Source: Caulobacter soli
Lineage (GTDB): Bacteria; Pseudomonadota; Alphaproteobacteria; Caulobacterales; Caulobacteraceae
Direction: 5' to 3'
Assembly: GCF_011045195.1 (NCBI RefSeq)
Contig: NZ_CP049199.1
Location: 2,480,001 to 2,544,000 of the forward strand
DNA length: 64,000 nt
Below are positions 23,435 through 43,249 of this stretch, in pieces. Both the position numbers and the translations under genes were made by a program. Positions within the stretch are counted from its first letter, which is position 1; each line of letters begins with the position of its first letter. The notes beneath the pieces were generated by a model. The model was given only the letters and a program-made list of their open reading frames with translations. It had not been told where the DNA came from and made no database searches.

Positions 23435-23830
23435 GCGCGTCAAACTCCGGGAGGATGATCTCCGTTTGTCTTCGATCATGGTTAACGGGCGCTGAAGGCG
23501 CGGCGTCCGGCGAAGGCTTGTCGATGGCGCTTGGTTCTTGTCCGGATGGCCGGGGAGGGGCGCTCGGAGGTCTTTTAGGTTCGAGCCGGCCGGCGTGGAG
23601 CGAATATGACGACGCCGATCTTTGGATCGCCTGAGCGGCCATTCGGATTTGCAGCCGTCGCTTATCGCAAACGAGTGAGGAATATATTCCTATCTCAGGG
23701 GCTGTGGTTGTAAACGGCCGATTCCTAGCGCGCGGTGCTGAGTGCGTGGCAATTTCGACGACGCCTATGAGGGCCAAGGCGCTTGTTCTCGATGACGACG
23801 GCCTGATTGGCCTTCCGGATTTGTCGATGG
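23435..23830. other. Gene-free stretch between GT41 gene and transposon end
   Basis: No convincing gene is visible in these 396 bases. The stretch must contain the promoter of the GT41 gene. It also holds one AGGAATATATTCCT palindrome (23678-23691) like the two found just inside the transposon end. A reading frame of 155 codons on the minus strand lacks any recognisable domain and I do not call it. Confidence 0.6.
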
Positions 23831-23932
23831 TGTCACTGACTCCAATTATCGCGACAAATTTGTAGGAATATTTTCCTAAACTGAACCGCAATTGCCAACG
23901 CCACCCTCGTTGAATTTTCTGGAATATATTCC
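23678..23932. repeat. Three copies of an AGGAATATATTCCT-type palindrome
   Basis: The copies are 23678-23691 (AGGAATATATTCCT), 23864-23877 (AGGAATATTTTCCT) and 23921-23932 (GGAATATATTCC). They are strongly AT-centred in a GC-rich genome, so chance is unlikely. One lies outside and two lie inside the apparent transposon end at 23831. Function unknown; they could be operators or resolvase/partition-type binding sites. Confidence 0.7.
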
Positions 23933-24141
23933 TATTCTGGATACCTGAAACGCAATCGGCCGTTTATGAAAGGATTCAGCGACTTATGGCGCAAAAGGGA
24001 TAGCGGCTTTCATAATCCCCTTTCAAAATCTGCATGCCCAGAAGGCCGTTTTTGACGCCTCCGGGATCAATCTCAAAATTGGCCTCAAACCCTGCGATTG
24101 TCTCCAAACTCGCGAAAACTGGCTCCAAAATCCGCGACTAA
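23831..24141. repeat. Outer left end A: terminal repeat and TniA-type sites
   Basis: The tip TGTCACTGACTCCAATTATC at 23831 is followed by internal sites at about 24079-24100 (GGCCTCAAACCCTGCGA), 24098-24119 (TGTCTCCAAACTCGCGA) and 24118-24141 (TGGCTCCAAAATCCGCGACT). All share a (T)GNCTCCAAA-N-GCGA core. Multiple spaced sites of this kind are how TniA/TnsB-type transposases mark an end. Confidence 0.75.
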
Positions 24142-24171
24142 CTATTTCCGTCTTTTTGGGCGGCCGCCGGC

Positions 24172-24798
24172 CTATCCGCTCGCCGCGCCTCGAACTGGGC
24201 TCACTCCATCCTTAGCCGGACGCCTGTAGCGTTTTCGCAGATCGGTCGGTGCCTTGCCGAGCGATCGGTAGAGCGTCGATCGCGCGACGCCCAGCGTGTT
24301 TGCAACCTCCGCCCCCGTCGTTTCAGGGTCCGCCAGCAACCGCTTGGCATGGCCGAGCTGCTGCAAGGTCAACTTGGCCGGGCGACCACCCAATCGTCCC
24401 CGCGCCTTGGCGGCGGCTAGGCCCGCGACGGTCCTCTCACGAACTAAGTCCCGCTCCATCTCGGCCATTGCCGCCATGACATGGAAGAAGAACCGTCCCG
24501 CCGACGAGCCTGTGTCGATACCGTCCGTCAGGCTTGCGAACTGAATGCCACGCTTTTCCAGCTGCGCGGTGAATTCCACAAGCTGACGCACCGAGCGTCC
24601 CAGCCGATCCAGTTTCCAGACCATAAGCGTGTCGCCGGCGCGAAGATGCGAGAGCGCGTCCGTCATCCCGACCCGATCACCGCGGCCGCCGCTCGCGTGG
24701 TCCGTGAAGATCCGGTCGCAGCCGGCCTTAGTGAGCGCATCCACCTGGAGGTCGAGCCGCTGGTCCGCCGTCGAGACGCGTGCGTAGCCGATGATCAT
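24172..24798 (-). CDS. Serine recombinase / resolvase (Tn3 TnpR type)
   Basis: A site-specific recombinase of 208 aa that would resolve cointegrates or invert DNA. Catalytic domain: MIIGYARVSTADQ with the nucleophile S9, then WKLDRLGRSVRQLVEF and the long helix MAEMERDLVRERTVAGL. The C-terminal HTH is near 160-190 (TGAEVANTLGVARSTLYRSL). The ATG at 24798 is chosen because it begins the family motif exactly; upstream codons are non-conserved. The gene lies between the two left-end-like sequences. The second end (24882) is only 84 bases upstream of its start, where the res site of such a gene is expected. Tn402/Tn5053 elements are known to target res sites. Confidence 0.9.
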   Translation of the reverse strand: MIIGYARVSTADQRLDLQVDALTKAGCDRIFTDHASGGRGDRVGMTDALSHLRAGDTLMVWKLDRLGRSVRQLVEFTAQLEKRGIQFASLTDGIDTGSSAGRFFFHVMAAMAEMERDLVRERTVAGLAAAKARGRLGGRPAKLTLQQLGHAKRLLADPETTGAEVANTLGVARSTLYRSLGKAPTDLRKRYRRPAKDGVSPVRGAASG

Positions 24799-24881
24799 GC
24801 GTCCATTGTCCCAAAACCCGTGCCGACCACCAAATGCCGACGTTTGATTTCGCGACACAGTTTTCGGACCCCTCACGTTCA

Positions 24882-24998
24882 TGTCACTGACTCTTTAAAT
24901 TGCGACCGATACCTCAAGCAAGTGCCCGGGGGCAGCTGACTCTAAATTCCGCGATTGACTCCAAAATCTCAAAATCTGACTCCAAACTACGCGACTAA
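24882..24998. repeat. Inner left end B: terminal repeat and TniA-type sites
   Basis: TGTCACTGACTC at 24882 matches the first 12 bases of the outer ends. Further sites follow at 24937-24958 (TGACTCTAAATTCCGCGA), from 24955 (TGACTCCAAAATC) and 24976-24998 (TGACTCCAAACTACGCGACT). This is a complete end array of its own and not a stray match. It makes the element either nested or a product of two insertions. Confidence 0.75.
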
Positions 24999-25087
24999 TT
25001 TAGGGCTAGCTTTGACTCTTCTCGGACCTTGGGAGGGTCCGGTTACGGCTGGGACCATTCGAGGAAATGGACAGAACACTTCGACCT

Positions 25088-26527
25088 TCAGGCTCCGCTG
25101 GTAGCCCCTCGGATCCGCTCGGCGAGCATCCGCAGGAACTTGATTGTGACGTCGGTCGGCACGGTCTCGTACTTCAATTGGCGGAACGCATAGCTGAAAG
25201 CTGCGGCAAGAACAGCTAGGTCGCCGCCAGCGACATCGTGAGCCCATTCCCGGCAGGCACCGACCATTGGTCCAAGGCCGCTGGTGCCGACGAACTTTCC
25301 TTCGTCGAGCCAGTCTTCCAATTGGTCCATGAGTTTCTCGCGCAGACCGCACTTGGCTGCGTCGGGATGGAACACCAGGCTGAGTTCGAGCGCGATCGGA
25401 TCCATCACTGTGTAGCCAGGGCCGGCGTCGCCAAAGTCTATGAGCACCGCCTCGCCACCGCTTTTGACCAACACGTTCCCGCAATGGAGGTCGCCGTGAA
25501 TGCAACTCTGGGATACCTGGATGGGAACGTCTTCCACACTCTTCAGGTCTTCTAGATCATGCTTCTGGTAGAGACTTTCGGCGACGTCGTCGGCCACTAG
25601 GCGTCGCCGGACGTCACGGATCAAGGCCATGCCGGCCGTAGCAGCTTCGCTCCATCGCGCCAGGGAAGTGCGAACGTGCGTGACGACCTTCTTGCCCACA
25701 GTGACGTCGGCGGCCAATCGCTCGAAAAACGACAGGGTGTCCTGGTCGGTCAGGGTGTAAAAGATGGCCGCACTCTGTCCGACGCCATCCTCTACAACGG
25801 AGAACAGCGCGGGGCACGCTCCGACGCCCAACTTGCGGACGTGGGCTTCGTAAGCTTCCTTCTCCTGCTGAACGATCGATCGACTCCCCAGTTTTCCGGC
25901 GCATAGGGCTTGAGGTTTACGGGCGCCATCGACCGCTGTCGCTTTGACGACCTTTGCGTCGGAAAGCCCACCGCTCAGCAGGCTGACGTCGCAAGCCACA
26001 CAGTCGACGGAGTTGGCGTAGGATTTAAGCATCCGCTTCTGAACGGGCGTTAGGCCGAGATCGCGCATGCGCGTGTTGATCGCTACCGCGTCCATCCTCC
26101 CAAAACACCCCGCGACCGCCGTGACGCGAGCCACGAGTTCATCGACCTCTTCCTTCAGGAAGTAACTGACCGTTTCGATCTGGGTCTTGTCACCCCACAG
26201 GCGGACTTGGTTTCCGTACCGGGCAAGCTGTCGGCTGAACTTATCGGCCTCGGAGCCAGTCAGGATGAAGATCGGGGTCCCCGGATGACGCTTTTGAGCT
26301 TCATAGAACAGAGTTTGTCCATGCGCCGGGTCAGGCGCATCGCTATCCGCCCCCGATGGGATCGAGAGATCCAAGACTATGAGATCAATGAGATCATCAT
26401 CCAGCGCCTTTCGAGCCGCCTCCAGGTCCTGGACATTGATGACCTGTTCGACGCCGGGTATCTCAAGAAGGATGGGCTGGAGATCTCCAGCAAAACCTTC
26501 GTTATCCTCAACGAACAGAATCTTCAT
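25088..26527 (-). CDS. Response-regulator receiver fused to an APH-type kinase domain
   Basis: This 479-aa fusion has an N-terminal CheY-like receiver, with acidic D8, phospho-acceptor D53 in LIVLDLSIP, T90 in FILTGS and K114. The C-terminal half is of the aminoglycoside phosphotransferase/choline kinase fold: CIHGDLHCGNVLVKSGG holds the catalytic Asp and metal Asn, and AVLIDFGDAGPG is the DFG-like metal site. This family phosphorylates small molecules or proteins. A receiver controlling such a kinase is unusual. The likely input is the histidine kinase gene directly upstream, whose end it overlaps by 20 bases. Start at ATG 26527, which begins the receiver strand MKILFVEDN; an ATG at 26536 is also possible. 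The substrate is unknown. It is the last gene of a three-gene operon. Confidence 0.82.
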   Translation of the reverse strand: MKILFVEDNEGFAGDLQPILLEIPGVEQVINVQDLEAARKALDDDLIDLIVLDLSIPSGADSDAPDPAHGQTLFYEAQKRHPGTPIFILTGSEADKFSRQLARYGNQVRLWGDKTQIETVSYFLKEEVDELVARVTAVAGCFGRMDAVAINTRMRDLGLTPVQKRMLKSYANSVDCVACDVSLLSGGLSDAKVVKATAVDGARKPQALCAGKLGSRSIVQQEKEAYEAHVRKLGVGACPALFSVVEDGVGQSAAIFYTLTDQDTLSFFERLAADVTVGKKVVTHVRTSLARWSEAATAGMALIRDVRRRLVADDVAESLYQKHDLEDLKSVEDVPIQVSQSCIHGDLHCGNVLVKSGGEAVLIDFGDAGPGYTVMDPIALELSLVFHPDAAKCGLREKLMDQLEDWLDEGKFVGTSGLGPMVGACREWAHDVAGGDLAVLAAAFSYAFRQLKYETVPTDVTIKFLRMLAERIRGATSGA

Positions 26528-27416
26528 CGCCGCCAAACCACCTCAGCTCGACCTTGGCACCCCCCTCGAGCGCATTAGTCGGATAGATATCGCCCTCTAG
26601 CGCCTGCATCGCCTGCTTCGCCGTAGCCAGGCCAAAGCCGAGATGTTCGGACTTGTCCTTTGTGCTCTGGCCAAAATCCACCATGCCGCCCGGGTCTCGC
26701 TCGAAACCGAAACCGGTATCGAGGACGGCGACCCAGTATTCATGCCCGGCAAACCCCCAGTTCAACGTCACCGCGCGCGGCGCGCCTTCGGGCAGGGACC
26801 GCACGGCTTCGACCGCGTTCTTCACGACGTTGGTCAAAGCGATTTTGAACAAATCTGGATCGAGTTCCACCAGAAAAGGAGAAGGGCCACCAAACCTGAA
26901 GAGCTCGCCGTCATCGACGAAGATTCCACAAGCGTCGCGACATTCCTGGGCCAGATCGCATTGGCTGTAATTGGCCCGACTGGCCGCTGCCTTCAGGTTA
27001 CGTATGCCGCCCAGCAGGCTCGAAAGAGAATTGACAAGGGTCTCGGTGCGGCTGCCGGCATAGTCGGGTGCTTCGCGAGGCGCGACCAGTTTCAGCGACG
27101 CCACGATGGTTGAAAGTTCATGGATGATGGTTCCGGCGACTTCGTCGATGACCCTGGCGCGGAGCTCCGAAACCAACCGCTGCGGAGGATCGGCATAGAC
27201 GGGTTGAGCCACGGTTTGGGTTTCTTTTGCCGGCCCCAGCCGGCTGATTGCCCGTTCTAGAGCTCGCTTCGTCCACGGCACGTTCTCTTGGAGCAGCGCC
27301 GCCTTCAGTCTCCGCCGATCCGCGCTTGTTGCGTTCATTGCAAAATGGCGGGCGGCTCTTAGCCGCTCCGTCGCGTCAGCCGAAAGCAGGAGTTCGACCG
27401 CCTCGTCGTGCGTCAT
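26508..27416 (-). CDS. Soluble histidine kinase (GHKL) without sensor domain
   Basis: The 302-aa protein has an N-terminal helical part resembling HEAT repeats (residues 1-60), a dimerisation helix with the putative phospho-histidine in GTIIHELSTIVASL, then the ATPase domain with N-box ALTNVVKNAVEAV, G1 box VLDTGFGF and G2 box HLGFGLATAKQAM. It lacks membrane segments and any PAS or GAF domain, so the signal must be cytoplasmic and may come from the ATPase encoded before it. Its ATG follows the ATPase stop without a gap (TGA then ATGA), and its end overlaps the receiver/APH gene, indicating strict co-translation. Confidence 0.85.
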   Translation of the reverse strand: MTHDEAVELLLSADATERLRAARHFAMNATSADRRRLKAALLQENVPWTKRALERAISRLGPAKETQTVAQPVYADPPQRLVSELRARVIDEVAGTIIHELSTIVASLKLVAPREAPDYAGSRTETLVNSLSSLLGGIRNLKAAASRANYSQCDLAQECRDACGIFVDDGELFRFGGPSPFLVELDPDLFKIALTNVVKNAVEAVRSLPEGAPRAVTLNWGFAGHEYWVAVLDTGFGFERDPGGMVDFGQSTKDKSEHLGFGLATAKQAMQALEGDIYPTNALEGGAKVELRWFGGDEDSVR

Positions 27417-29255
27417 TCAGAGTTCGTGCTCATCATAGAACCGCGCGCGGCTTGAAAACGCGTCCCGTCCGCCTTCCATCACGTTGGTGATCGCATCTAC
27501 GGCCTTGGAATTGCTCAAGGCCTCGCAGACCTGAACAAAGCCATTTCGACCGTCCGAGGTCATCTCGACAACTAGGTCGGCCTCGCCAAGGACCGGGATA
27601 TTGGCGTTGTGGGTCGAAATGATCAGCTGTCCGTTTGCCTTGCGGGTCTTGATGGCTTTGATGATCGTCGAAGCAATATATGCGTTGTCTAGATGGTCTT
27701 CGGGCTGATCGATAATTAGGGTTCTGCTCGAGTGCTGCAACACGATCGACAGGATGACGGTGCACCGTTGACCAGCCGATAAATGTTCGACGTCTTTGTA
27801 GTCTACACCATCTAGTAACGACATCCGGACATTGTCTTCTATGCTGACGGTAACGATGTCCGCGGCACCGGCTTCGCGCAGATGGCCCAGCAGTCGGGCG
27901 GCGCGATCCTTCGGAATTCCAGAAATATCAGCTAGGCCGACAAAGTCGTTGGTGTCCAGGAATTGGACCAGCTCATGAGGGCTGATGCTTTGTGTCAACG
28001 CCCCCACGAGATCGTTGTAGCGCATGCCGCTGCCGCGAAGCGCGTCGGTCAAGGCGCGATTGTAGTCGGCGTACTGCCCGTACCGGTCCACCGACACCTT
28101 GATCTGGGGGCCAAGCGCCTTGTTCAGGTCGTTAGTAACCTGCGTTCTTTGCTCGAACCGTTCCAACCGCACGGCGTCCAACGCTCGGATTCGTTCGTCA
28201 CGCCGCACCCTCATCTGTCGCAGGCGCTGATCCCGCTCGTCCACGATCTTCCGCCTGGCGTTGATCTGTGCGACTTCGGTACGCAATTGCGCCAGTTGGC
28301 GCGAAACTGCGCCAGCGCCCGAAACCGACTGCTCGACTTCGACTCTCAACGCGCGGGACTGGGCCTCCGCAGCCATGCGGCTCCCGCTGAGGGCCTCCTT
28401 GGACGCGACAGCCTCGGTTTGCATCGCGTCGAACTTGGACGCGATCACTCCGACGAGTCCCACCTGTTCATCATAGCGTTTGCGGAAGGCCGCCAATGGG
28501 TCTGGTCCGTCCAGCTCGTCCCAGGCCTCCACGCCGAAGTCATCACCGATCATGCCTTGGAGGTTTTCTGCCCAGGCCTGAGCGGAAGCGGCAAAGCGCG
28601 AAAGGACCTCTTCACGTACGGCCAGGTTGGTTACCTGGGCTGTGATCGTCGCCAATTGTGCCTGCTTGTCAGTAAGATCCGAGGAAGCCGCGCGATGCTT
28701 TTCCTCTTCGGCCTCGAATGCCTGGATCCGCTGCTGCAGCGCGTCGAGCCCTTCAAGACCGGCGCCCAGGGAATTTCGTTCGTCCTCCAGGGCGCTGATC
28801 TCCTTGAAGATCGATTTGATCGCCGAAACTGCGGCTGCCTCGTCAGCCGAAAGGGAGGCACCTTTCGAAACGAAACTATCTACCAGACGCAGCCGTCCCC
28901 CTTCGCTGAGGCCAATGTTTTCGATCTCGGTCTGGGAGAAGATCAGCGGTTTTTCATATTTGCCATTGGCCTGTGGCTCCGCATCACCGCCAGCGCGGCT
29001 AACGATGATGGTGTCAAGGATGTCCCCCACTTGAACTGTGACCTCGCCGTCGCCCAAGACAGCGCGGGCATGCTCGGCCGATCGTTGCCCCGCTTCGGTG
29101 GTATGGTTACGGGCCGCCAGCGCGAAGCGAAGGAGCTCGATGACGGAGGTCTTGCCTGTGCCGCGCGCCCCGATCAGCACGTTCAGGCCGCTCGCGAACT
29201 TGACATCGAAGCCATCCAGGAAGCCCCCTTCGATCTGCAAACGCTCGATATTCAC
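27417..29255 (-). CDS. SMC/RecF-like AAA ATPase with coiled coil
   Basis: The 612-aa ATPase is of the ABC-type head/coiled-coil class seen in DNA repair and many phage-defence systems. Walker A is GARGTGKTS (near 32-40), the ABC signature is LSAGQRCTVILSIVL, and Walker B is RTLIIDQPEDHLDN, followed by the H-loop in LIISTHNANIP. Between them lies a long charged helical region (about 130-370) fitting an antiparallel coiled coil. There is no fused nuclease or TOPRIM domain, unlike the Gabija or OLD families. The start is a GTG with CAGGAG upstream. It heads the operon with the histidine kinase and the receiver/APH protein and is the likely sensor of invading or damaged DNA; that role is inferred. 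Confidence 0.88.
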   Translation of the reverse strand: MNIERLQIEGGFLDGFDVKFASGLNVLIGARGTGKTSVIELLRFALAARNHTTEAGQRSAEHARAVLGDGEVTVQVGDILDTIIVSRAGGDAEPQANGKYEKPLIFSQTEIENIGLSEGGRLRLVDSFVSKGASLSADEAAAVSAIKSIFKEISALEDERNSLGAGLEGLDALQQRIQAFEAEEEKHRAASSDLTDKQAQLATITAQVTNLAVREEVLSRFAASAQAWAENLQGMIGDDFGVEAWDELDGPDPLAAFRKRYDEQVGLVGVIASKFDAMQTEAVASKEALSGSRMAAEAQSRALRVEVEQSVSGAGAVSRQLAQLRTEVAQINARRKIVDERDQRLRQMRVRRDERIRALDAVRLERFEQRTQVTNDLNKALGPQIKVSVDRYGQYADYNRALTDALRGSGMRYNDLVGALTQSISPHELVQFLDTNDFVGLADISGIPKDRAARLLGHLREAGAADIVTVSIEDNVRMSLLDGVDYKDVEHLSAGQRCTVILSIVLQHSSRTLIIDQPEDHLDNAYIASTIIKAIKTRKANGQLIISTHNANIPVLGEADLVVEMTSDGRNGFVQVCEALSNSKAVDAITNVMEGGRDAFSSRARFYDEHEL

Positions 29256-29296
29256 GCGCCGGTCGCTCCTGATAGTTCGTTTCTAGTTTACCCCTC

Positions 29297-29530
29297 CTAA
29301 CGCTGACGGCAGATCACCGCTAGGGAAGGCTTGAGACTCGCCAGCCAAACCCTCGTGACCAGTGTCTCGGCGGTGCAAAACTGATCCGGCAAGCTTACGA
29401 ATTTCTTCCGGCGCCACTGGCCCATGCGACCGATTTTGTCGCCTTGCACCTTTATCAGTAAGGCCCTGGTTGAACCGAAGAATTCAAATGCAATACCATC
29501 ACCTAGAAATAACTCCAGAAGCCTCCACAT
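29297..29530 (-). CDS. Small hypothetical protein upstream of the ATPase gene
   Basis: A 77-codon frame on the same strand as the ATPase operon, ending 41 bases before the ATPase start. The product is basic with a hydrophobic N-terminus (MWRLLELFLGDGIAFEFF) and includes KIGRMGQWRRKKFVSLP. No ribosome site is evident and no family is recognised. It overlaps the start of the divergent gene at 29488. It may be a real first gene of the operon or a chance frame. Confidence 0.3.
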   Translation of the reverse strand: MWRLLELFLGDGIAFEFFGSTRALLIKVQGDKIGRMGQWRRKKFVSLPDQFCTAETLVTRVWLASLKPSLAVICRQR

Positions 29531-30072
29531 GTGACCGTGTCACGACGTGCAACATAGAAAAAGGCCTAGAAGCGCTGTCGCTTAGGGCTGAGTTTCTCGC
29601 ATACTTGAACCAGAGCGCTGATGGCATTGAAGCATTCGACGCCCGTGCTCAGCGATGGCAGAAATTTGTAGAGCAATTTGGCGCGCATGGCGTCTGTTTG
29701 CCCTCCGAATATTGCTTCGCCTTCGAGGCGGGTCTGAACGCGCGGATCACACACGCGGCGCTTAGCGGCTACGCGATAGGTTTTGGCTGCGACTCGATGA
29801 TCGGTGTTGCTCACGCGATCTTTGATCACCATCCCCAACATCTTGCCGCGTTCTTGGCCCTTGCCGCAGCCAGCGGGCACGGTGCCGCCATCCGCGCCCA
29901 AGATCATGATGGCCGGTGGCATCGGAAGGTGGCGCGCTTGGTACCATTGGGGATGGCCCTGCCAGCGCGTTATCGCCCGAACCTAAAGTTCGCGCCGTTG
30001 ATGAAGTTTCTGTTTCCGAGCAGCTCCGCAGTCTTCGAGGAGCTGGAACTGAGCGGTCGCGTGCCCCACTAA
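29488..30072 (+). CDS. Hypothetical protein (194 aa)
   Basis: No known domain is recognised. The ATG at 29488 gives a 194-aa soluble protein with an acidic, helical N-terminal half (IEKGLEALSLRAEFLAYLNQ; FDARAQRWQKFVEQFG) and a middle part rich in H and A (HAIFDHHPQHLAAFLALAAASGHG shown here only as HAIFDHHPQHLAAF). It lies divergent to the ATPase operon within the transposon. A longer upstream extension exists in frame, but its codons look random. Codon use is consistent with coding. It may be cargo of unknown function. Confidence 0.5.
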   Translation: MQYHHLEITPEASTCDRVTTCNIEKGLEALSLRAEFLAYLNQSADGIEAFDARAQRWQKFVEQFGAHGVCLPSEYCFAFEAGLNARITHAALSGYAIGFGCDSMIGVAHAIFDHHPQHLAAFLALAAASGHGAAIRAQDHDGRWHRKVARLVPLGMALPARYRPNLKFAPLMKFLFPSSSAVFEELELSGRVPH

Positions 30073-30197
30073 TTAGGGCCTGACTCGCCGCCGATCACCA
30101 CGGCCGGTCCGAAATCCCCGCAAGCAACGTCATAGGACACAACCTCATCACCCAGGGTGAGATTGCCCCGACGGTCATGTCTCTGGAGCGGCACCAA
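30069..30197 (-). pseudogene. Short protein-like frame, probably a gene remnant
   Basis: From a TTG at 30197 the minus strand encodes about 42 residues, including GNLTLGDEVVSYDVACGDFG and ending GGESGPN. The sequence reads like a genuine beta-strand protein fragment, but there is no good start or ribosome site. It follows two other short minus-strand frames, as if an older gene set had decayed here. Confidence 0.25.
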
Positions 30198-30223
30198 CGT
30201 CCGCTATTGTGGCGCGATCGCGG

Positions 30224-30349
30224 CTAGCCACGCCGGTGGCGCTCGAGCTTAGTTAGACGCGCTGCGTGAACCTGTCGTCCGCTCATGCCCAAAGCGCGTC
30301 TGGCTTTGAGCGCCTCGGACACGGCCATCTCGCGCTCATGGGCCTTCAT
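30224..30349 (-). CDS. Small helical hypothetical protein (41 aa)
   Basis: The ATG at 30349 opens 41 codons of a strongly basic helical peptide, with MKAHEREMAVSEALKARRAL and MSGRQVHAARLTKLERH in sequence. It is in the same frame as, and downstream of, the 30389-30814 frame, separated by a TAG and 13 further codons. It may be a short gene or the tail of the preceding one after a nonsense mutation. Confidence 0.3.
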   Translation of the reverse strand: MKAHEREMAVSEALKARRALGMSGRQVHAARLTKLERHRRG

Positions 30350-30388
30350 GATTTCATAGCCATAAGTGCGCGCGATTTCTGGCAGTTG

Positions 30389-30814
30389 CTAGCTGGGAAG
30401 ACCCAGGATCTTTCGAAGAGTCCGCTCGTCGGTGTAGTAAAATTTCTCAAGGCTCATCGGCGCCGGCGTCAGCGGAGGCCGTTCTCGAGAGCCATGTGAC
30501 CGGTTCGCAGCTGGATCAAGGCGAGTGACCAGCGTGTACCAAGCCCGCTTATGCAATGTGAGCTCGCGACCCAAGGCGTGGTCGATGTCCAGCTTACGCC
30601 CAGTTATGCCGAACACCTTTTGTGCGGCGTAGCGGCAGTTGCCGTAGTCGGGCGCGACGTAGAGTAGGCGCAGGTTTCCTCTGATGATGACGAAGGCCTT
30701 GTGCGCCGGGATCCCGCCAATCCGATAGAGCTCGCCGTCCAGCGAGTTCGCTATCGAATGGTGCTTGTGGCCGCGATTGGGATCTGCCCTAGGCCGAGGC
30801 CGCCCAGGAGCCGC
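30389..30814 (-). pseudogene. Remnant of an unidentified (possibly HNH-like) protein
   Basis: An open frame of about 142 codons without an obvious ATG start. It looks strongly protein-like: HKHHSIANSLDGELYRIGG, then AFVIIRGNLRLLYVAPDYG, then KLDIDHALGRELTLHKRAW and NRSHGSRERP, ending TLRKILGLPS. The spacing of DIDH, H and NRSHG residues recalls HNH-type nucleases, but I cannot confirm it. The 5' end is cut by a TAA at 30815-30817. Best read as a truncated gene within the transposon cargo. Confidence 0.4.
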
Positions 30815-31677
30815 TTAGCCTTTCAAGTCTTGGTCAATCCTGAGCAGGTCGTTTGCATCGCCTCGCTTCCCTCGCCCTGCGCCGCTGCACGGTCGATCTG
30901 CTGATCGCCAGCGACGTCTCGATCTTGGAGTTGCCGCAGTTCAAGCGGGCCGGCTTCATCAAGGGCGCGCGAGGCGCGCTCGGCTCGCCCCGCGTGCCGG
31001 CAATTATCTGGGGATACTTGGCGATCGGAAGCGGAGCAGCGTCGGTTCAAACTCGCCGCTCGAAGTCCGCTTTCACCACGATCTGGAGGCTATGGACGCC
31101 TGGACCACAACATCTTGACTCGAAGGTCGACAAGTGGGACGAATCGGCCTCATAGTCGGAATTGGTAAATGGGGTCTTTCCGCCCACGGCCGACTCGTAT
31201 TATCGGGTACTGGCGAGTGGATGATTCCGGTTTCCACTCCCACATCATTTGAGTTTGCTTATCTCGCCGACGGGCTTGGTCGGATTCTCAGGACGTCTTC
31301 AAAGCAGGAGCGACGGCTGAAAAGCATTGAAGCAGCGTAGATCGCTGATGGTGGGGAGAGGACGGAACATCCTGGAACTTTGCCGGTCACCGGAAAGTCC
31401 ATCCTCTCACCCGATTCCCAACCCGTTTCCGAGTCGGTAAGCGAGCAATAGCGGCGGCCGCGTAAGCACACAATGGCCGCGACTGCTAACAGCGCCGTTG
31501 GCCGGCTCGGATGTATCCAAATCATTCCTCCAGGGTCGTGAAGGACCCTCAGTAGGTACAGCGCGCGCTGGCGGCTGACCCTACGTCCCATTTTGTCGGG
31601 GAGGTCTGGTTACATCCGCTCGCGACCGTGAATGCCGCAGCCATTCAGCGGCCGAGCGCCAACCAAAGGAGGGGCCC
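30815..31677. other. 863-bp stretch without a convincing gene
   Basis: Several short frames exist on both strands (for example 31134-31340 plus and 31259-31591 minus), but none has a ribosome site, domain or consistent codon pattern. The last part must hold the promoter of the CBASS operon. Together with the broken frames just left of it, the stretch looks like decayed cargo. Confidence 0.5.
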
Positions 31678-31770
31678 ATGGTCCCTAGCGCCGACCTCGA
31701 CACCGCCCACTGCTGTCCTCGTTCAACGCCACCAGCCCGTCAGGCCGCTCGTCTGGAGGTCCAGCTATGA
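31678..31770 (+). CDS. 30-aa leader ORF overlapping the CBASS cap6 start
   Basis: An ATG at 31678 follows a near-perfect AAAGGAGGGG ribosome site and encodes MVPSADLDTAHCCPRSTPPA and ten more residues. Its TGA (31768-31770) overlaps the ATG of the TRIP13-like gene at 31767 in an ATGA junction. The peptide has no known match. The layout suggests translational coupling or a leader-peptide control of the defence operon. A GGAGG at 31754-31758 could also serve cap6 directly. Confidence 0.5.
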   Translation: MVPSADLDTAHCCPRSTPPARQAARLEVQL

Positions 31771-32678
31771 GGGACGGTCACGCCTATAACGCGGAACTGC
31801 CCAAGGGCATCAGCCGCAGCCGGCCGCTGCCGGACGAGAAGCTGGGCGCTTTGTGGGACTCCATCGTCATTGAGGAGGAGACCAAAAAGCAGCTTCTGTC
31901 CCAGGCGGTGCTCAACTTCACCCTGCGGGGCAAGGTTGATCGGACCGTCATTCCCCTGCACGGCGTCATCCTGCTCACCGGTGAGCCCGGCACAGGCAAG
32001 ACGTCGCTGGCGCGGGGGCTGGCTCATCGCACGGCGATGGCGTTCCGGGGCGGCCGGTTCAAGCTGCTGGAAGTCGAGCCCCATTCCCTGACCAGCTCGG
32101 CGATGGGCAAAACCCAGCGGGCAGTTTCGGACCTCTTTTCCCAAGCGATCGCCGAGGCCGCCATGAGCGGGCCCACGATCGTCCTATTGGACGAGGTCGA
32201 GACCCTGGCGGCCGACCGCTCGAAGATGAGCTTGGAAGCCAACCCCATCGACATCCACCGCGCCACCGACGCGGTCCTAGTGCAGTTGGACGCGCTGGCC
32301 GAGCGGTTCCCCGATCTGCTCTTCGTGGCGACGAGCAATTTCCCCGACGCCGTCGACAGCGCGTTCACCTCCCGCTGCGACCTGGTCCTGCGCGTGCCGT
32401 TGCCCGACCGGGTGGCCTGCGGCCAGATCCTGCGCGACTGCCTGACGGGCCTGGGGAGGACCTATCCCGAGATCGGTCGCCTGGCTTCCGCGCCGGGCTT
32501 TGAGCGCTGCGCCCAGGAGTGTGTCGGGCTCGATGGCCGCGCGATCCGCAAGATGGTGGCCAACGCCTTGGCCTGTCGCCAGGAAGTGGCGATGGATCCG
32601 GCCAAGGTCACGCTCGATGACGTGCTGCGCGCGGCCCAGCGCGCCAAGGCCAATCGCACGGGGGGCAGGTCGAAATGA
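31767..32678 (+). CDS. cap6: CBASS TRIP13/Pch2-like AAA+ ATPase (Cap6)
   Basis: In type III CBASS, the TRIP13-like ATPase remodels the active HORMA protein and so switches off the cyclase; it is the regulator of the system. The 303-aa protein has Walker A GEPGTGKTS (72-80), Walker B TIVLLDEVE with D142 and E143, sensor-1 LFVATSNFPDAVD and the arginine finger segment FTSRCDLVLRV, all typical of Pch2/TRIP13. It is the first gene of five consecutive plus-strand genes with overlapping or near-overlapping junctions. Most described type III operons start with the cyclase, so this gene order is reversed. Confidence 0.88.
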   Translation: MRDGHAYNAELPKGISRSRPLPDEKLGALWDSIVIEEETKKQLLSQAVLNFTLRGKVDRTVIPLHGVILLTGEPGTGKTSLARGLAHRTAMAFRGGRFKLLEVEPHSLTSSAMGKTQRAVSDLFSQAIAEAAMSGPTIVLLDEVETLAADRSKMSLEANPIDIHRATDAVLVQLDALAERFPDLLFVATSNFPDAVDSAFTSRCDLVLRVPLPDRVACGQILRDCLTGLGRTYPEIGRLASAPGFERCAQECVGLDGRAIRKMVANALACRQEVAMDPAKVTLDDVLRAAQRAKANRTGGRSK

Positions 32679-33151
32679 CCACCGTCGCCAGTCGCAGGTT
32701 TTCCAGCACGCCTCAACGCGACGCCGGCGCCACCTGGCGCGCTGTCGTCGATCTTCTGACGGGGGGCGCGACCGGCGCCAAACGCGACGAACTGCTGGCC
32801 GTGGCCGGCGTCGCCTCCAGCATCATCGCCGACAAGGCGGCCAAGGACGCGGCAATCGTCGTCACCTGCGATGGGCCGCGCACCCGCATCTATTGTCTCT
32901 ACGACGATGACGCCATCGACGGCTCGGACGCCAACGAAGACGCCCTTGGCTATGATCCCCTGGACGGCGATTGGCGCGTGTCGCTCCCTTGCGAGCCCGA
33001 CGACCTGGCTTGGGTCCAGGGCGCGCTGAAAAAGCACAGCACGCGCATTACCGCCCGGGACAAGGCCTCGGCCACCGGCGGCGAAAGCGCCAGCAGTGGC
33101 CAGAAGGCCGCCGGCCTGGTCCTGGACCCGAAAGGATTCCTCGGGTCATGA
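32675..33151 (+). CDS. CBASS-associated protein of unknown function between Cap6 and HORMA
   Basis: This 158-aa protein has ATGA overlaps on both sides (32675-32678 and 33148-33151), so it is an integral part of the operon. Residues 1-120 look like a small alpha/beta domain ([50 protein letters not shown]). The last 40 are a low-complexity Ser/Ala/Gly tail ending in [12 protein letters not shown]. Some type III operons carry a second HORMA-linked protein whose tail peptide is clamped by the HORMA domain. The flexible tail with a hydrophobic end could serve as such a closure motif, but I see no direct homology to a named family. Confidence 0.7.
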
Positions 33152-33648
33152 CCGCCGTCACCGTCAACACCTACACCCACTCGGTCACCTACGTGGCCGA
33201 CAACATGCTCAAGAGCCTCAAGGACATCATCCGTCTGAGCGGCCTGGACCCCGCCGCGTTCATCGACGACTGGGACGTCAACATGCGCGGCATCCGCACC
33301 TGGCTCGACACTGGCGACCTCGAAACCGTCAAGTTGGAGATTTTCGATCCAAAGACCGACGCGCTTCTTGTTCGCTGGGACATGGACGTCGTCTACGGCT
33401 GGAGCTCCGGCGACGGCAACTTCTGGGTCGACACCGAGCAGTTGAAGTACGCGATCCTCAAGGCCGGCGTGTGGCCCAGCCAGGCCAAGTATCGCCTGCT
33501 GCTGCACACCAAGCCGGGCCGTCCCGATGTGGCCGGCTGGAGCAAGGGCAGCGCCCGCTCGACCGCCGGCTTCACCAAGCAGTCCCTGGGAACGACGATC
33601 GATCACAGCGGCCTTGGGGCCAACGCCGGATACTGGAGGAAGGGCTGA
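33148..33648 (+). CDS. cap7: CBASS HORMA-domain protein (Cap7, HORMA1 type)
   Basis: The HORMA protein binds a peptide in its closed state, then binds and activates the CD-NTase. The 166-aa product matches bacterial HORMA1 features: [20 protein letters not shown] at the N-terminus, [40 protein letters not shown] and a C-terminal [16 protein letters not shown] safety-belt region. The ATG at 33148 is fixed by the ATGA overlap with the preceding gene, and its stop overlaps the start of the CD-NTase (TGATG at 33646). Confidence 0.88.
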
Positions 33649-34550
33649 TGCTCACCGTCGATGAAGCGTTTCGGAAGTTCAAAAGCCGCCTGGAGCTGAA
33701 CGACCGCGAGCAGAAGAACGCCACCGCGCGCCATACCGAAGTGCGCGACTACATCCGCGCGAAGTTCAAGATCGAGAAGGATTTCCTGACCGGGTCCTAC
33801 AAGCGGCACACCAAGACCAAGCCGCTCAAGGACATCGACATCTTCTTCGTCCTCAAGGACTCGGAGCGCGAAACGTACCGCGACAAGGCACCGTCGGTGG
33901 TCATCGGTGACTTCTATGACGCCCTGGTCGAGAAGTACGGAGCCAGCGCGGTCCGCAAACAGGGCCGTTCGGTCAATGTCGATTTCGGTATCGTGGCCGA
34001 CGCCGAGGACAACACCGACTACCGGGTCCTCAGCGTTGACGTCGTCCCGGCTTTCACCTGCGGTGCCGACTACGAGATCGCCGACACAGACAAGGGCGAG
34101 TGGATCAAGACCAATCCGGAAATCCACGCCTCTAAGGCCGTGGCCGCCCACCAGGCCTATTCTAACGAATGGAAGGGCTTGGTGCGCATGGCCAAATATT
34201 GGAACAACAACCCCCGTCACGGCGAAAAGCCGGTCAAACCCTCGTTCCTGATCGAGGTCATGGCGCTCCAGTGCCTGTACGGGGGCTGGCAAGGCCGGTT
34301 CGACTACGAGTTCCAGTCGTTCTTCCAGACCCTGGCCGACAGGATAACCGACGAATGGCCCGATCCGGCCGGCCTTGGCCCGCCGATCAGCGACGGCATG
34401 GACGCGGCCCGCAAGCAGCGGGCGAAAACCCTGCTGCAGGCAGCCAGCCGCGACGCCAGTCTGGCGATCAATCTGAGCCGGCAGGGGAAGAACGGCGAGG
34501 CGCTGAAGGCCTGGCGCGCGCTCTTTGGGCCCAAGTTCCCGCTGTCGTAG
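33648..34550 (+). CDS. CBASS CD-NTase (cyclic oligonucleotide synthase)
   Basis: This 300-aa enzyme makes a cyclic di- or trinucleotide second messenger after infection sensing. It has the nucleotidyltransferase signature [20 protein letters not shown] with G49-S50 and metal ligands D62 and D64, and the third acid D131 in SVDVVPAF. The C-terminal helical domain includes [14 protein letters not shown] and FLIEVMAL. Length and motifs fit clades C/D of the CD-NTases, which commonly pair with HORMA and TRIP13 proteins. The ATG overlaps the HORMA stop by one base. The product nucleotide cannot be read from the sequence; SAVED-type effectors often bind cyclic trinucleotides. Confidence 0.88.
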
Positions 34551-34587
34551 GGGCGCGTCGCGCCGACCGCATATTCTGGAGATCATC

Positions 34588-36099
34588 ATGGCCGATGCGG
34601 TGACGCCGCGATGGAACGGCGACAAGTACCAGGCGCGGGTATTCTGGCATAACGCCCTGCACATGCTGGCCACGGACTCGGTCGTCGTGGAGGTCACCTT
34701 CGAGGCCGATGCGCCCAAGGCCTTCGACGACGTCGTGGTCAAATATGATCCGCCCATCGCGGGGTCAGGACCGGTGCGGGTGCCTGCGACCTATCACCAG
34801 GTCAAATGGCACGTCGAGCTGGGTGGCCGCTTTGGCTACAAGGACTTCATTGAGCCAGACTTCATCGGCGCGACCAGCGTGTCGCTTCTCCAGCGGCTGC
34901 GCGAGGCCAAGAAGATCGCGCCCGCTGGCGCCCAGTTCGACTTCGTCACCACCTATCGCATCCATGACGACGACCCTCTGTCGCCGCTGCTGTCGGGGAC
35001 CGATCGCTCGATCCTCATCGACCGCCTGTTCGACGGAACCACCGACCGTAGCAAGACCGGCAAGATCCGTAAGCTCTGGCGCGAGCACCTGGGACTGGCT
35101 TCGGACGACGAGCTGAAGGCCGTCGTCTCGGGGCTACGCATCTTCGATGGGCAGCTGTCGCTCGATGAGTTGCGCTCCCAGGTCAATCTGCGGGCGGAGG
35201 TGGTCGGCGCCCTGACCTGCCGGACCAACTCCGACTTCCGCTATGACGGCTTGGCCCAGGCCCTCAAATCGCGGCGCCTCAACAGCTTCACCCGCGAGAC
35301 CTTGCGCGCGATCCTGGCCGAGGAAGGACTGCTGGTGGAGGTCGCGCCCTTGGTGGACGCGCCGCTGCCGGTCGCCATTCGCAGCTTTCACGGTCTGGCG
35401 GCCGACCTGAGCATCGCCTCGCCCGAGAACACCCTGGTCCTGACCGAGGCGTTCAATCAACGATACCTGCGCGCGGATCGTAGCTGGCAGGACGACATCG
35501 GGCCGCGAGTTTCCACCTTCCTGGCCGAGGCCGTCCGGCGGTCGGGGAAGCTTCGCCTATCGCTGGACGCCCATGCCTCCATCGCCTTCCTGGCCGGCTC
35601 GGTGCTGGACGTGAAATCGGGCGTCGACACCACCCTGGTCCAGAAGGGGCGGGTCGGTAGTCGCGAGTGGCGCGCCGACGATGGAACGGAGACGGACGCG
35701 GCCAGGCTCGTTGTGACCTCGGCGGCGCTGGGCAAGGGTAGGGACATCGCCGTGGCGTTGGGCGTGTCGCGCGACGCCGAAAAGGAAACGCGCGCCTATA
35801 TCGCCAAGTCGCTGAAGGGTGTGGGGAAGCTCCTGACGTTCGCGATGCCGTCCGGGCCTGGGCAGCAAGTCGTCGCCGGCGGTGGACACGCCGCGGCATT
35901 GGCCGAGCAGGTCGCCAACCAGGTTCGCGACGCCCGAGAGGAACCCGACGCGGTCGTGCATATCTTCGCGGCCTGCCCCAACAGCGTGATGTTCTTCCTG
36001 GGTCAGGAACATCGCGGCGTCGCGCCCTGCGTCGTCTACGAGTTTGACTTCGATCGCCGGGGCAACAAGAGCTACCAGCCGTCCTTTGTCATCGAGTAG
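34588..36099 (+). CDS. cap4: CBASS effector: Cap4-like nuclease with SAVED sensor domain
   Basis: On binding the messenger, Cap4-type effectors oligomerise and cut double-stranded DNA without sequence specificity, killing the infected cell. The 503-aa protein has an N-terminal DUF4297-like nuclease (RWNGDKYQARVFWHNALHML, then E39, D47/D48 and Q71-x-K73 in YHQVKWHV as the active-site set) and a C-terminal SAVED domain (KLRLSLDAHASIAFLAGSVL; HIFAACPNSVMFFLGQEH; VVYEFDFDRRGNKSYQPSF). The ATG at 34588 has GGAG 7 bases upstream. It ends the CBASS operon and converges with the acidic-protein gene. Confidence 0.85.
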   Translation: MADAVTPRWNGDKYQARVFWHNALHMLATDSVVVEVTFEADAPKAFDDVVVKYDPPIAGSGPVRVPATYHQVKWHVELGGRFGYKDFIEPDFIGATSVSLLQRLREAKKIAPAGAQFDFVTTYRIHDDDPLSPLLSGTDRSILIDRLFDGTTDRSKTGKIRKLWREHLGLASDDELKAVVSGLRIFDGQLSLDELRSQVNLRAEVVGALTCRTNSDFRYDGLAQALKSRRLNSFTRETLRAILAEEGLLVEVAPLVDAPLPVAIRSFHGLAADLSIASPENTLVLTEAFNQRYLRADRSWQDDIGPRVSTFLAEAVRRSGKLRLSLDAHASIAFLAGSVLDVKSGVDTTLVQKGRVGSREWRADDGTETDAARLVVTSAALGKGRDIAVALGVSRDAEKETRAYIAKSLKGVGKLLTFAMPSGPGQQVVAGGGHAAALAEQVANQVRDAREEPDAVVHIFAACPNSVMFFLGQEHRGVAPCVVYEFDFDRRGNKSYQPSFVIE

Positions 36100-36210
36100 G
36101 CCATGAGCACCTGGCCCACGAACGTCGCGTTCTTGGAGGCAGCCCAACTTCTGCTCATGGCGCGTTTCGCGTCAAGCGAACGGCCTTGCAAAACGGCGGA
36201 CCAAATCCTG

Positions 36211-37764
36211 CTATCCGCCCCAGGCTGCCTCGTTGGCCTGACGCCTGAGCTTTTGGATCAGCCGGGATAGGGGGGAGAGCCAACCCGCATCTGTGCCCGT
36301 TGCGGCAATGATCGTGTTGATGTCGTGCAGATGCGCCGCCACGAAGTTGAAGAGTGTGTTGTAGCCGGCAGCAGCCGCCTGAACTGCACCGGCTCCCAAT
36401 GCGCTGGCCTTAAAGCCATCCACCAGAATAGACATGCCGGTCTCGCCCAAAACATGGCCAATGCCGATGGCAAGCCCACCTATGACCAGCCCGGCGACCT
36501 GGCGAGAGCGAGCAGAATGCGGTCCCGTACCCACCGACTGAACGGCGTCGGCAACCAGCGTCTGAGTCGCCGGAGAAAAGAGTGCCGTCGCCTGCTGAAT
36601 TTCGGTCGCGAAGCGCGTGGCTGCCCGCTCAAAGGCTTCGATTGTCCGCTCCGGCATCTGGTAGGCCGCAGCCCCTTCGACGAGGGCCTGGCCGTCTGGG
36701 TTGTTCATCACGAAGGCGCCGTGGAGGGCAATCAGATCATCAGCTGCGAGCGGGGCGTCGTTCGGCAGAGGCGGCAATTCTTCACGTTCGATCAGATCGC
36801 GGGAATGCCGGTAGGCGTTCTCAAGCATTACGCCACGGGCATAGGCACCACCGATGGATGGTGTGTCGCCCCTCAAGACTTCCTCGTAGTTCTGAGCAGC
36901 CCGAAGCAGGTTGATGTGGGCGTTGGTGCCCGCGAGCGATTGCACCAGCCGTTGGGCGGCCTCTCGAAGCGGCGCGAGTAGAGGAGATGGCGGCCGGAGA
37001 TCCGCTGGCTCAGGCCAGCCTTGGAAATCCAGACGCCCAAGCTCGTCTCGGCCGAATTTCGGAACTGAACCGTCGCCCTGGCCGCCGGCTAATTGGGCCG
37101 CCACGGCCTCCATCAGGCTCTCGACGCTGACGTCTTCCTCGTCGTCGTCATCGAAGTCTGGCGCTTGGGTCGCGTCGTCTAGGTCGCCATCGTCGAAGTC
37201 GCTGAAGTCCTTTGACGCCCAATCGAACAGCCCGTCGCTTTGGATTTCATCGACCGCGGCCTCGATCAAACCCTGCGGAGCGTCGGGGAAATTGCTTTCG
37301 ACCTCCTCGCGCGCATCGAAGGGACCACCATTGACCCATTGATAGCCGCCTTCGGCGCTGACGTAGGGCAACCGGTTGGCGGGATCCTCGAAGTTCGCGT
37401 GGAACCACTCCACCATCGCGTCGATCTGCGATTTTCGCTCCTCTGCCGTGAGGGATGAATCTTCGTCTTCCGAGTCGGGCTCGTCGGGTTCGAACTCGAT
37501 GGAAAAATCGAAGTTCTCGATCAGCTGGTGAGGGCCGATGTTCTGGTCGATGTCGTCCAAGATGCCGACCGGATATTCCCATGCCTCCCACGACAGCAAG
37601 CCCAGATCAGGATGGTCGATTTCTGCGGCGAACTGGAGCCGCGGGCCCATCTGCTCCTCATCGCCACCGACCTGGTCCCAATCGAGCTCCTCGGCCTCGA
37701 TGCGATAATCGACCTGCGTCGCGGCATGGCGGATCAAAGCTGTGCCGTTGATAGCCACCGTCAC
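36211..37764 (-). CDS. Large acidic protein of unknown function in transposon cargo
   Basis: I do not recognise this 517-aa protein with confidence. The N-terminal 100 residues are compact (PRLQFAAEIDHPDLGLLSW, EYPVGILDDID). Next comes a conserved-looking block, MVEWFHANFEDPANRLPY with GGYQWVNGGPFDAREEV, a motif I recall in uncharacterised bacterial proteins. An extremely acidic linker follows (about 180-215, runs of D and E), then helical segments, then a Gly/Ala-rich stretch near 425-475 (VAGLVIGGLAIGIGHVLG) that could insert in a membrane. This order recalls a sensor plus latent membrane-active part, but that is speculation. It is convergent with the CBASS operon and divergent from the resolvase at 38074. 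Confidence 0.7.
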   Translation of the reverse strand: MTVAINGTALIRHAATQVDYRIEAEELDWDQVGGDEEQMGPRLQFAAEIDHPDLGLLSWEAWEYPVGILDDIDQNIGPHQLIENFDFSIEFEPDEPDSEDEDSSLTAEERKSQIDAMVEWFHANFEDPANRLPYVSAEGGYQWVNGGPFDAREEVESNFPDAPQGLIEAAVDEIQSDGLFDWASKDFSDFDDGDLDDATQAPDFDDDDEEDVSVESLMEAVAAQLAGGQGDGSVPKFGRDELGRLDFQGWPEPADLRPPSPLLAPLREAAQRLVQSLAGTNAHINLLRAAQNYEEVLRGDTPSIGGAYARGVMLENAYRHSRDLIEREELPPLPNDAPLAADDLIALHGAFVMNNPDGQALVEGAAAYQMPERTIEAFERAATRFATEIQQATALFSPATQTLVADAVQSVGTGPHSARSRQVAGLVIGGLAIGIGHVLGETGMSILVDGFKASALGAGAVQAAAAGYNTLFNFVAAHLHDINTIIAATGTDAGWLSPLSRLIQKLRRQANEAAWGG

Positions 37765-38073
37765 GTGTGTGGGTCCTTATCGAGCGACGCTTGGGTAGAG
37801 CTTTAGAAGATTTCTCTGCATGGCCGCAACAAATGTCCGCTCAGCTTTGCGCCGCCACGGAAGGGGGCGGACGGGGTGCTGAAGGTCCGAAGTCTGGAGA
37901 GGTCCGATGTTCCGCTTCTGGCGCATATCAGATCCTATCGTCGAATAGGATGAAGCATGCTCGGCTCGAAAGGTGTAAGTTATGCGCCATGGCCCGGAAC
38001 TTACCTTTTTCTGTAATATTAGCCATATTATGAGCCAGCCCGCCATCACCCCCTAACTTTTGAGCCAATAGCG
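37765..38073. promoter_or_regulatory. Divergent promoter region and possible res site
   Basis: These 309 bases separate the acidic-protein gene and the resolvase gene and must hold both promoters. At 38014-38030 there is an AT-rich inverted repeat (TAATAT-N5-ATATTA), followed by two TTGAGCC/ATGAGCC motifs (about 38030 and 38055). A resolvase normally acts on a res site immediately upstream of its own gene, and these are candidates. No gene is visible here. Confidence 0.4.
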
Positions 38074-38679
38074 ATGCGGATCGCCTACTATAGGGTTTCG
38101 AGCGGCGATCAGAGCATTGAAGCTCAACGTCATGCGTTGGGCGGCGGCTTCGATCGGGAGTTTTCCGATGTAGGCGTAAGCGGGGGCGTTCCAGCCGCCG
38201 CCAGGCCCGGTTTTACTAAACTATTGGAGCAAGTCCGCCGCAGCGATGTCGTCTGCGTCTACGCAGTCGATAGGCTTGGGCGGGATGCGCTCGACGTTCA
38301 GGCGACCGTTCGCCGGCTAATGGACGAGGGTGTCGTTGTAGATATTCACGGAATAGGGACCATTGACGGGCGAGGGGTAGGCGAGATCGTTCTCGCCGTT
38401 CTTGCCCAGGTCGCGGATCTGGAGCGCCGCCGAATTCGCGAGCGAGCTGACGCAGGTCGAAATGCCGCAAGAGCCGCCTTATTATCGACAGGCCGCACGC
38501 ACAGGGGCAAGGAAAGTCTGGGTCGCCCGATGAAGAGCAGCCCAAATGCCGTAGCGCGATGGAGAGAAGGAAGCGGCGCCAGCATTAGAGCAACAGCCGC
38601 ACATTTTGACCTCTCGACCGCAACGGTAAAGCGCTACTGCGCACAGGTGGCTGCGCGAACCGTCGAGAGTTCGAAATAA
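38074..38679 (+). CDS. tniR: Transposon resolvase (serine recombinase, TniR-like)
   Basis: The 201-aa serine recombinase would resolve the cointegrate formed by tniABQ-driven replicative transposition. It begins MRIAYYRVSSGDQSIEAQR, with nucleophile S9, and has VYAVDRLGRDALDVQATV and the helix ADLERRRIRERADAGRNAA. A C-terminal HTH lies at about 165-190 (SIRATAAHFDLSTATVKRY). It belongs to the same broad family as the resolvase at 24172 but is clearly divergent from it. It lies upstream of tniA on the same strand, whereas in Tn402 tniR follows tniQ. Confidence 0.88.
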   Translation: MRIAYYRVSSGDQSIEAQRHALGGGFDREFSDVGVSGGVPAAARPGFTKLLEQVRRSDVVCVYAVDRLGRDALDVQATVRRLMDEGVVVDIHGIGTIDGRGVGEIVLAVLAQVADLERRRIRERADAGRNAARAALLSTGRTHRGKESLGRPMKSSPNAVARWREGSGASIRATAAHFDLSTATVKRYCAQVAARTVESSK

Positions 38680-38698
38680 GTATTTTCGAAATCTACGG

Positions 38699-43143: not shown

Positions 43144-43184
43144 AAGGGACGCCGTCTGGCTTGTTGTAGATGTTCATCGTCTAA

Positions 43185-43207: not shown

Positions 43208-43249
43208 ATAGCGGCGTGCAGCGGCGCGCATCGCGTCCACGGCCTGCCG

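Follow-up and report, generated by a model that had tools for sequence, protein, structure and literature searches.

ATPases of the PARIS, Lamassu and Gabija type work together with nucleases or other effectors and are not known to involve two-component proteins. Two-component signalling has been described in Detocs, a three-gene defensive system with an ATP-degrading PNP effector (available parts of PMC11249213 and, as a further source, PMC10952713). The name of the TCAD9 domain reflects, in the accessible text of PMC10910872, an association with vWA-MoxR-VMAP ternary systems. According to the available part of a 2020 eLife paper (PMC7159879), the effectors of these systems include a few APH-type kinases and, sporadically, receivers, and no histidine kinases were found among the vWA-associated ones. 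Here, a stretch of 64,000 nucleotides from Caulobacter soli (contig NZ_CP049199.1, positions 2,480,001 to 2,544,000; the window) was found to carry, at 25088-29255 on the minus strand, three genes encoding an SMC/Rad50-like ATPase, a soluble histidine kinase and a receiver fused to a TCAD9/APH-type kinase. This trio is a genuine, conserved and mobile three-gene unit, which we are slightly inclined to read as a mobile ATPase-gated phosphorelay that switches on a kinase able to arrest the cell, probably directed at phages or mobile elements.

A profile built from 32 receiver-APH sequences (A1) and searched in species-representative genomes identified 52 loci, including clear relatives (L002-L033) and loci that match shorter kinase stretches only (L034-L053). 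The initial annotation had proposed a survey of co-occurrence, and the full trio was indeed found, in the same order and on the same strand, in 25 of the 32 related genome loci, as well as on plasmids; this count includes two loci with split frames (L012 and L029) and one in which the third gene ends early (L007). The seven exceptions are a locus at a contig edge (L006), one on a 3.4 kb contig (L016), a receiver-APH gene alone (L027) and four remnants or split copies (L030-L033), with L032 and L033 being two records of one strain. By our own assignment, the hosts of the 25 trios represent five phyla and include Alpha-, Beta- and Gammaproteobacteria, an Acidobacteriota metagenome-assembled genome (MAG; L009), Chloroflexota (L021 and L025), Planctomycetota (L024) and Actinomycetota (L026), and each of 18 genomes re-searched (18/18) holds a single copy. 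Among 72,556 plasmid records, 47 match, 36 of them from Piscirickettsia, and the trio is annotated in eight of ten plasmid regions that were opened (Leclercia, Klebsiella, Caballeronia, Rhodococcus, Vibrio, Pantoea, Shinella and Phaeobacter). The trio is rare and patchy: in surveys of the genus (75 genomes), the class (385) and the phylum (398), it was found in its own genome only, with at most four candidates scored per genome in the latter two surveys. Residue conservation was assessed in a set of 30 trios (the window, 23 loci and six plasmids, with L012, L029, L069 and L070 outside because of split frames in the first two), in which mean pairwise identities of the three proteins were 39, 33 and 32%. 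Compared with one another, the pairwise-identity matrices of the ATPase, histidine kinase and receiver-APH gave correlations of 0.92-0.94, a level reached by none of 2000 permutations; shared host descent would produce a correlation too.

The initial annotation had described one strictly coupled operon, and the coordinates, the stop/start junction and the 20-base overlap were all verified. The ATG of the histidine kinase gene lies directly 3' of the ATPase stop codon, and the third gene, when started at the ATG used by its relatives (26527), gives an overlap of exactly 20 bases. A promoter and terminator scan gave no signal higher than shuffled sequences, and neither an Rfam search of 23500-43500 nor a tRNA gene search returned a match.

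The ATPase matched the Pfam families AAA_21 (43.7 bits) and AAA_23 (34.2 bits), with SMC_N slightly below its cut-off. It has the Walker A (K35), signature (S493/Q496), Walker B (D516) and H-loop (H549) motifs and the head fold with coiled coil of an SMC/Rad50-type ABC ATPase, together with a C-terminal MEGGxxAFxxRAxFY motif. Each of ten ATPase residues tested is kept in 30/30 trios, and identity averages 49% in the head and 25% in the coiled coil. A comparison of folds, which the initial annotation had also suggested, agrees with these assignments; the AlphaFold models fit an SMC/Rad50 ATPase for the first protein and a receiver with an APH-fold kinase for the third. In NCBIfam, TrlF matched the ATPase with 238 bits (cut-off 350), aligning ATPase residues 3-607 with TrlF residues 290-943/944, and Ppl matched more weakly (100 bits). 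The best PADLOC match was Ppl (87 bits), an anti-phage protein of the PHP-SMC type, and distant matches were found to LmuB, AriA and GajA. As a separate observation, TrlF-like ATPases of approx. 930-965 amino acids are followed in three genomes by an open reading frame (ORF) of approx. 403 amino acids (L111:3349-4563, L112:3346-4560 and L115:1905-3113), whose product by eye resembles a protein of the AlbA/Schlafen type (GENSGVEFKRD motif).

The histidine kinase, which matched HATPase_c with 36.4 bits, consists of a HEAT-like N-terminus, a DHp domain with H99 (codon 27120-27122) and a CA domain; the H-box histidine and the N, G1 and G2 boxes of a histidine kinase are all present. Residues H99, N200, D233, G235, G260 and G262 are kept in 30/30 histidine kinases and E100 in 28/30, with H99 being the sole invariant residue in the 71-residue DHp segment (residues 80-150). 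The profile of this protein matched a FixL-kinase chimera (2.8e-16), and no match was found in PADLOC at 0.1. The statement of the initial annotation that this kinase has no sensor domain was too strong. Profile residues 7-73 (approx.) match alphaRep designs, which we take to be HEAT-like, and PF13646, presumably HEAT_2, is present in the relatives P0184 and P0194. Because of the alphaRep match, the N-terminus is, as judged from sequence, likely a protein-binding sensor part; across all 30 histidine kinases, the HEAT-like region has zero invariant residues.

The third protein matched TCAD9 (73 bits, cut-off 40), APH (36.3 bits) and, slightly under the cut-off of 30.2, Response_reg (27.8 bits); no second TCAD9 protein above the cut-off was found in the same genome. 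Its receiver has the acidic pair, phospho-acceptor Asp, Thr/Ser and Lys of CheY-type receivers, with D8, D53 (codon 26369-26371) and K125 invariant in 30/30 and E7 and T90 varying in one or two sequences. In the kinase part, the HxDxHxxN motif and the metal-binding Asp of APH-fold kinases are kept, with H344, D346 (codon 25490-25492), H348, N351 and D364 of the C-lobe invariant in 30/30; K212 is found in 28/30 (two Arg) and E222 in 29/30 (one Asp). The closest solved kinase folds are mostly small-molecule kinases, namely APH(3'), LicA, PsiK, aminopropanol kinase and FN3K. The best PADLOC match of this protein (23.7 bits) lies within the receiver, where weak matches to PDC-M60B/C were found.

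Further analysis of viral-collection contigs revealed a second subtype of the system. While the receiver-APH profile identified seven loci in which the match is confined to a kinase motif of 24-30 residues, a scan with the ATPase profile (A3) identified 12 loci, of which two (L097 and L098) carry the complete trio. Seven others (L099 and L102-L107) encode the ATPase, truncated at the contig boundary in L102 and L106, a histidine kinase of 372-374 amino acids and a receiver protein of 251-265 amino acids with a different C-terminus; L118, from a genome of the class, represents the same subtype. The remaining loci stop after the ATPase (L096), have ATPase and kinase only (L100) or have the ATPase and a partial receiver match (L101). 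The H-box of the second-subtype kinases is YHE[IL] in 9/9; the automatic H99 column, four residues off, holds R or K, which we read as a misalignment. Profile residues 7-144 of the second-subtype receiver match CheY and are followed by a different domain of approx. 110 residues, for which PDB sequences gave no match better than 0.11 and which, by eye, resembles a winged helix and may bind DNA. As the same ATPase and HEAT-type histidine kinase occur with a different receiver-output, the C-terminus encoded by the third gene is a swappable output. The second subtype shows the ATPase and the histidine kinase to be a chassis and points to the domain attached to the receiver as the output. By eye, several second-subtype loci also have serine-recombinase ORFs upstream, L103 and L104 have type I restriction-like ORFs in their vicinity, and an ORF of 1057 amino acids close to L118 is sacsin/HSP90-like.

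Several trios directly adjoin defence genes. In L008, a type III restriction gene pair ends approx. 50 bases upstream of the trio, and in L021 a type I restriction set starts approx. 115 bases downstream; other neighbours are BrxL and PDC-S24 (L003), a type IIG gene (L007) and dCTPase with mad3 (L009). The trio on the Caballeronia plasmid adjoins Hachiman genes (HamA, 215 bits, and a helicase), and VapBC pairs and an AbiEii/AbiGii-family gene were found near the trio on plasmids. Flanks were analysed as 212 proteins within 6 kb of 24 loci (ORFs of at least 130 amino acids, longest first), leaving out L006, L014, L016, L024, L027, L030, L032 and L033 and keeping L031, which has no histidine kinase. 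At 1e-20 these proteins matched 58 and 88 PADLOC families. Of two control sets, the first, with 109 (of 161 prepared) proteins encoded near other APH genes, matched 9 families, and the second, with 103 proteins taken from 16 regions in the genomes of the trio loci, matched 11; such family counts exaggerate, as one specificity subunit alone matched 52 families, and one locus of the first control (L034) carries a distant relative of the trio kinase. Of 30 flank proteins scanned individually, picked mainly by size, 11 matched, in 6 of the 24 loci. The association of the trio with defence islands is suggestive only. At L034:394-10462, from an Acidobacteriota MAG, the gene for this distant receiver-APH relative (487 amino acids, 33 bits) has HmaB/HmaC-type genes on its upstream side.

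In the window, the Tni genes, resolvases and exact terminal repeats frame both the trio and a CBASS operon (Table 1), in agreement with the shared transposon proposed initially. A terminal-repeat search that allowed two mismatches gave three matches, with approx. 3.07 expected by chance; all three are exact and located at the ends. No target-site duplication was readable at the transposon ends, and an uninformative search among the 75 genus genomes found no empty site. The location of the trio on one transposon with CBASS is well supported, while the exact history of this transposon is not. The two exact left repeat copies (window 23831-24900) flank the second resolvase (24172-24882), an arrangement that could reflect adjacent insertions of two related elements or duplication of a left end. 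An ORF of 517 amino acids (36211-37764, minus strand), located between CBASS and the Tni genes, matches HEPN_RES_NTD1 weakly (22.5 bits, cut-off 27.4) and may be another defence gene. The HORMA and CD-NTase genes of CBASS are separated by a small ORF (33148-33648, plus strand), which, by its position, possibly encodes a second HORMA-like protein.

Table 1. Positions of the trio and of transposon features in the window, and of second-subtype loci in their own contigs.
Feature	Positions	Strand	Remarks
ATPase gene	27417-29255	-	SMC/Rad50-like ABC type, TrlF-related; operon gene 1; 612 aa (amino acids)
Histidine kinase gene	26508-27416	-	soluble; 302 aa
Receiver + TCAD9/APH-type kinase gene	25088-26527	-	479 aa, from ATG 26527
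Overlap of histidine kinase and receiver-kinase genes	26508-26527	-	20 bases
Outer left transposon end	23831-23842	+	12-base terminal repeat TGTCACTGACTC
Second left-end repeat copy	24882-24893	+	12-base repeat TGTCACTGACTC
Right transposon end	43132-43143	-	inverted 12-base repeat copy
Serine resolvase	24172-24882	-	adjoins left end
Serine resolvase	38074-38679	+	beside Tni genes
Tni genes	39304-43062	+	
TniA-like transposase	39304-41121	+	
TniB	41088-41984	+	
TniQ	41863-43062	+	
CBASS	31767-36099	+	TRIP13, HORMA, CD-NTase, SAVED-PDDEXK effector; same transposon, outside trio
Second-subtype locus L099	2998-6899		
Second-subtype locus L103	7179-11129		
Second-subtype locus L118	6128-10024		

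Taken together, the conserved order and strand, co-inheritance, invariant catalytic residues, folds, output swap, mobile carriage, adjoining defence systems and patchiness of the trio make an ATPase-gated phosphorelay that activates a cell-arresting kinase somewhat probable; gene order, co-inheritance, intact catalytic residues, predicted folds and the swappable output domain were computed directly. The case for a relay is strong, and a role in defence, which rests on association evidence, is likely. In such a relay, the ATPase would bind a signal, for which a DNA structure that is aberrant or foreign is the most likely candidate, and its ATP-dependent state would alter the HEAT-type histidine kinase so that it autophosphorylates at H99, a chemistry expected from the conserved residues. 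The phosphoryl group would then be transferred to D53 of the receiver, and the fused APH-fold kinase, freed or activated, would phosphorylate a host metabolite or protein, so that growth stops and the spread of a phage or plasmid is blocked. In a broader and possible, though not quite probable, reading, the SMC-like ATPase and HEAT-type histidine kinase would be the chassis of an ATPase-gated two-component immune class with interchangeable receiver-outputs, i.e., an APH-type kinase modifying a universal cell component or, in prophage-like elements, a small C-terminal domain that is possibly a winged helix.

Several observations weigh against a defensive relay with a kinase effector. The receiver-kinase of L027 stands without the other two genes within 10 kb, the remnants or split copies L030-L033 hold no complete trio, and two opened Piscirickettsia plasmid copies (L071 and L072) keep the receiver-kinase with no intact ATPase annotated. 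Phage records (50,697) gave no match to the one receiver-kinase query used, and E. coli gave none to two DNA queries from the trio. The alternative output, possibly DNA-binding by eye, would suit a regulator as well as an effector. Moreover, while the enrichment near defence genes that the initial annotation proposed to check is seen in so far as whole systems adjoin several copies, the per-protein flank excess is weak. At least approx. 16 of the 212 proteins matched, as counted among 25 of the 58 and 25 of the 88 families; the corresponding numbers were approx. 4-5 of 103 for the control from the trio genomes and 5-7 of 109 for the proteins encoded near other APH genes. This weak excess would also fit a mobile-element stress module, in which the ATPase senses DNA damage or replication trouble of the host or element and the relay, through the kinase, adjusts physiology or keeps the element. 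The Rad50/SMC-like nature of the ATPase, the carriage on a transposon, plasmids and viral-collection contigs, the VapBC and AbiEii/AbiGii-family neighbours on plasmids and the possible DNA-binding output of the sister subtype point the same way. However, defence systems directly adjoin several unrelated loci and the anti-phage protein Ppl is among the relatives of the ATPase, and we consider such a module unlikely, even if it is the most serious of the alternatives.

The sign of the proposed relay could also be the opposite, with the phosphorylated receiver holding the kinase off and the ATPase shutting down the histidine kinase, or turning it into a phosphatase, upon invasion, so that loss of phosphate frees the output. 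The sequence leaves the sign unfixed, and the same catalytic residues would be needed; yet under this scheme a cell that lost the histidine kinase would be exposed to a toxic output, whereas L027 has a receiver-kinase, possibly inactive or regulated in another way, without the other two genes. This version is improbable. That the third protein is an APH-family enzyme that modifies drugs or serves metabolism and is controlled by an ordinary two-component pathway, as its mostly small-molecule-kinase fold relatives might suggest, is very improbable given the strict coupling to an SMC-like ATPase, the fusion of kinase and receiver and the patchy mobile distribution. Least credible of all is a Detocs member with a new effector. 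A histidine kinase acting on a receiver-effector and the weak receiver matches to PDC-M60B/C would speak for it, but the trio has no stand-alone receiver gene and has an extra ATPase gene. PADLOC PDC-M60C matches were found in 5 of 398 genomes, and four of these five loci (L064-L067) encode an upstream protein, a separate receiver of 148-166 amino acids and a receiver-PNP (PNP_UDP_1) protein; from the PNP-receiver gene, these loci are probably Detocs or its kin. The kinase profile A2 matched nothing at 1e-3 in the last 345-360 amino acids of the upstream proteins, whose identity as DtcA is presumed, and the same portion of the three that were scanned had no Pfam match. Receiver similarity between the trio and the PDC-M60 loci was only 16-37 bits.

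If the trio protects its host, it would be a second case, next to Detocs, in which bacterial immunity makes use of two-component signalling, here with a kinase output. If the broader immune class exists, ancient phosphorelay signalling would be plugged into the sensing of DNA structure, and phosphorylation of a protein or metabolite would be a lethal or arresting output. The swappable output provides a handle, with one sensor half and two outputs to compare, and the trio offers a testable function for TCAD9/APH-type kinases with candidate relay residues already defined.

As the initial annotation had supposed, the gene set corresponds to no named system in PADLOC, which gave partial or distant matches only, or in NCBIfam, which gave none above cut-off for the trio proteins. 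Searches of the open PubMed Central literature, a body that mostly excludes subscription papers, returned no description of this gene set or of a system with these three domains. In the available part of the DefensePredictor paper (PMC13092281), HATPase and REC are among the abbreviations for the predicted systems of Fig. 6F, one of which may be related, and the available part of a study of BREX diversity (PMC12839542) contains no such trio. The trio shares the TCAD9 domain with the vWA-MoxR-VMAP ternary conflict systems, whereas no vWA or MoxR match was found in the three proteins of the window (Pfam). The ATPase aligns with the ATPase half of TrlF and Ppl, but it has no fused N-terminal domain, since the match starts at TrlF residue 290, corresponding to ATPase residue 3, and scores below the cut-off; it has 612 amino acids, compared to open frames of 895-966 amino acids in eight other genomes with ATPase relatives, and its outputs would act in trans via the relay. 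With PARIS, Lamassu and Gabija, the trio shares an SMC/OLD-like ABC ATPase (matched distantly by LmuB, AriA and GajA) and an effector, but it places a histidine kinase and a receiver between the two. We know of no earlier immune example of a separate ATPase ahead of a histidine kinase. Detocs, which also has effectors other than PNP, and the PDC-M60 loci resemble the trio in having three genes and a two-component relay that ends in a receiver-effector protein. The initial annotation was right that the effectors differ, and the gene content differs too: the PDC-M60 loci carry a separate receiver and a PNP and the trio carries neither; no separate receiver gene lies between the histidine kinase and receiver-APH genes in the 25 of 32 loci, and the trio receiver is fused to TCAD9/APH. 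The trio therefore fails as a Detocs member on the missing stand-alone receiver and on its effector, and is set apart by an added SMC-like ATPase and an APH-type kinase as the effector.

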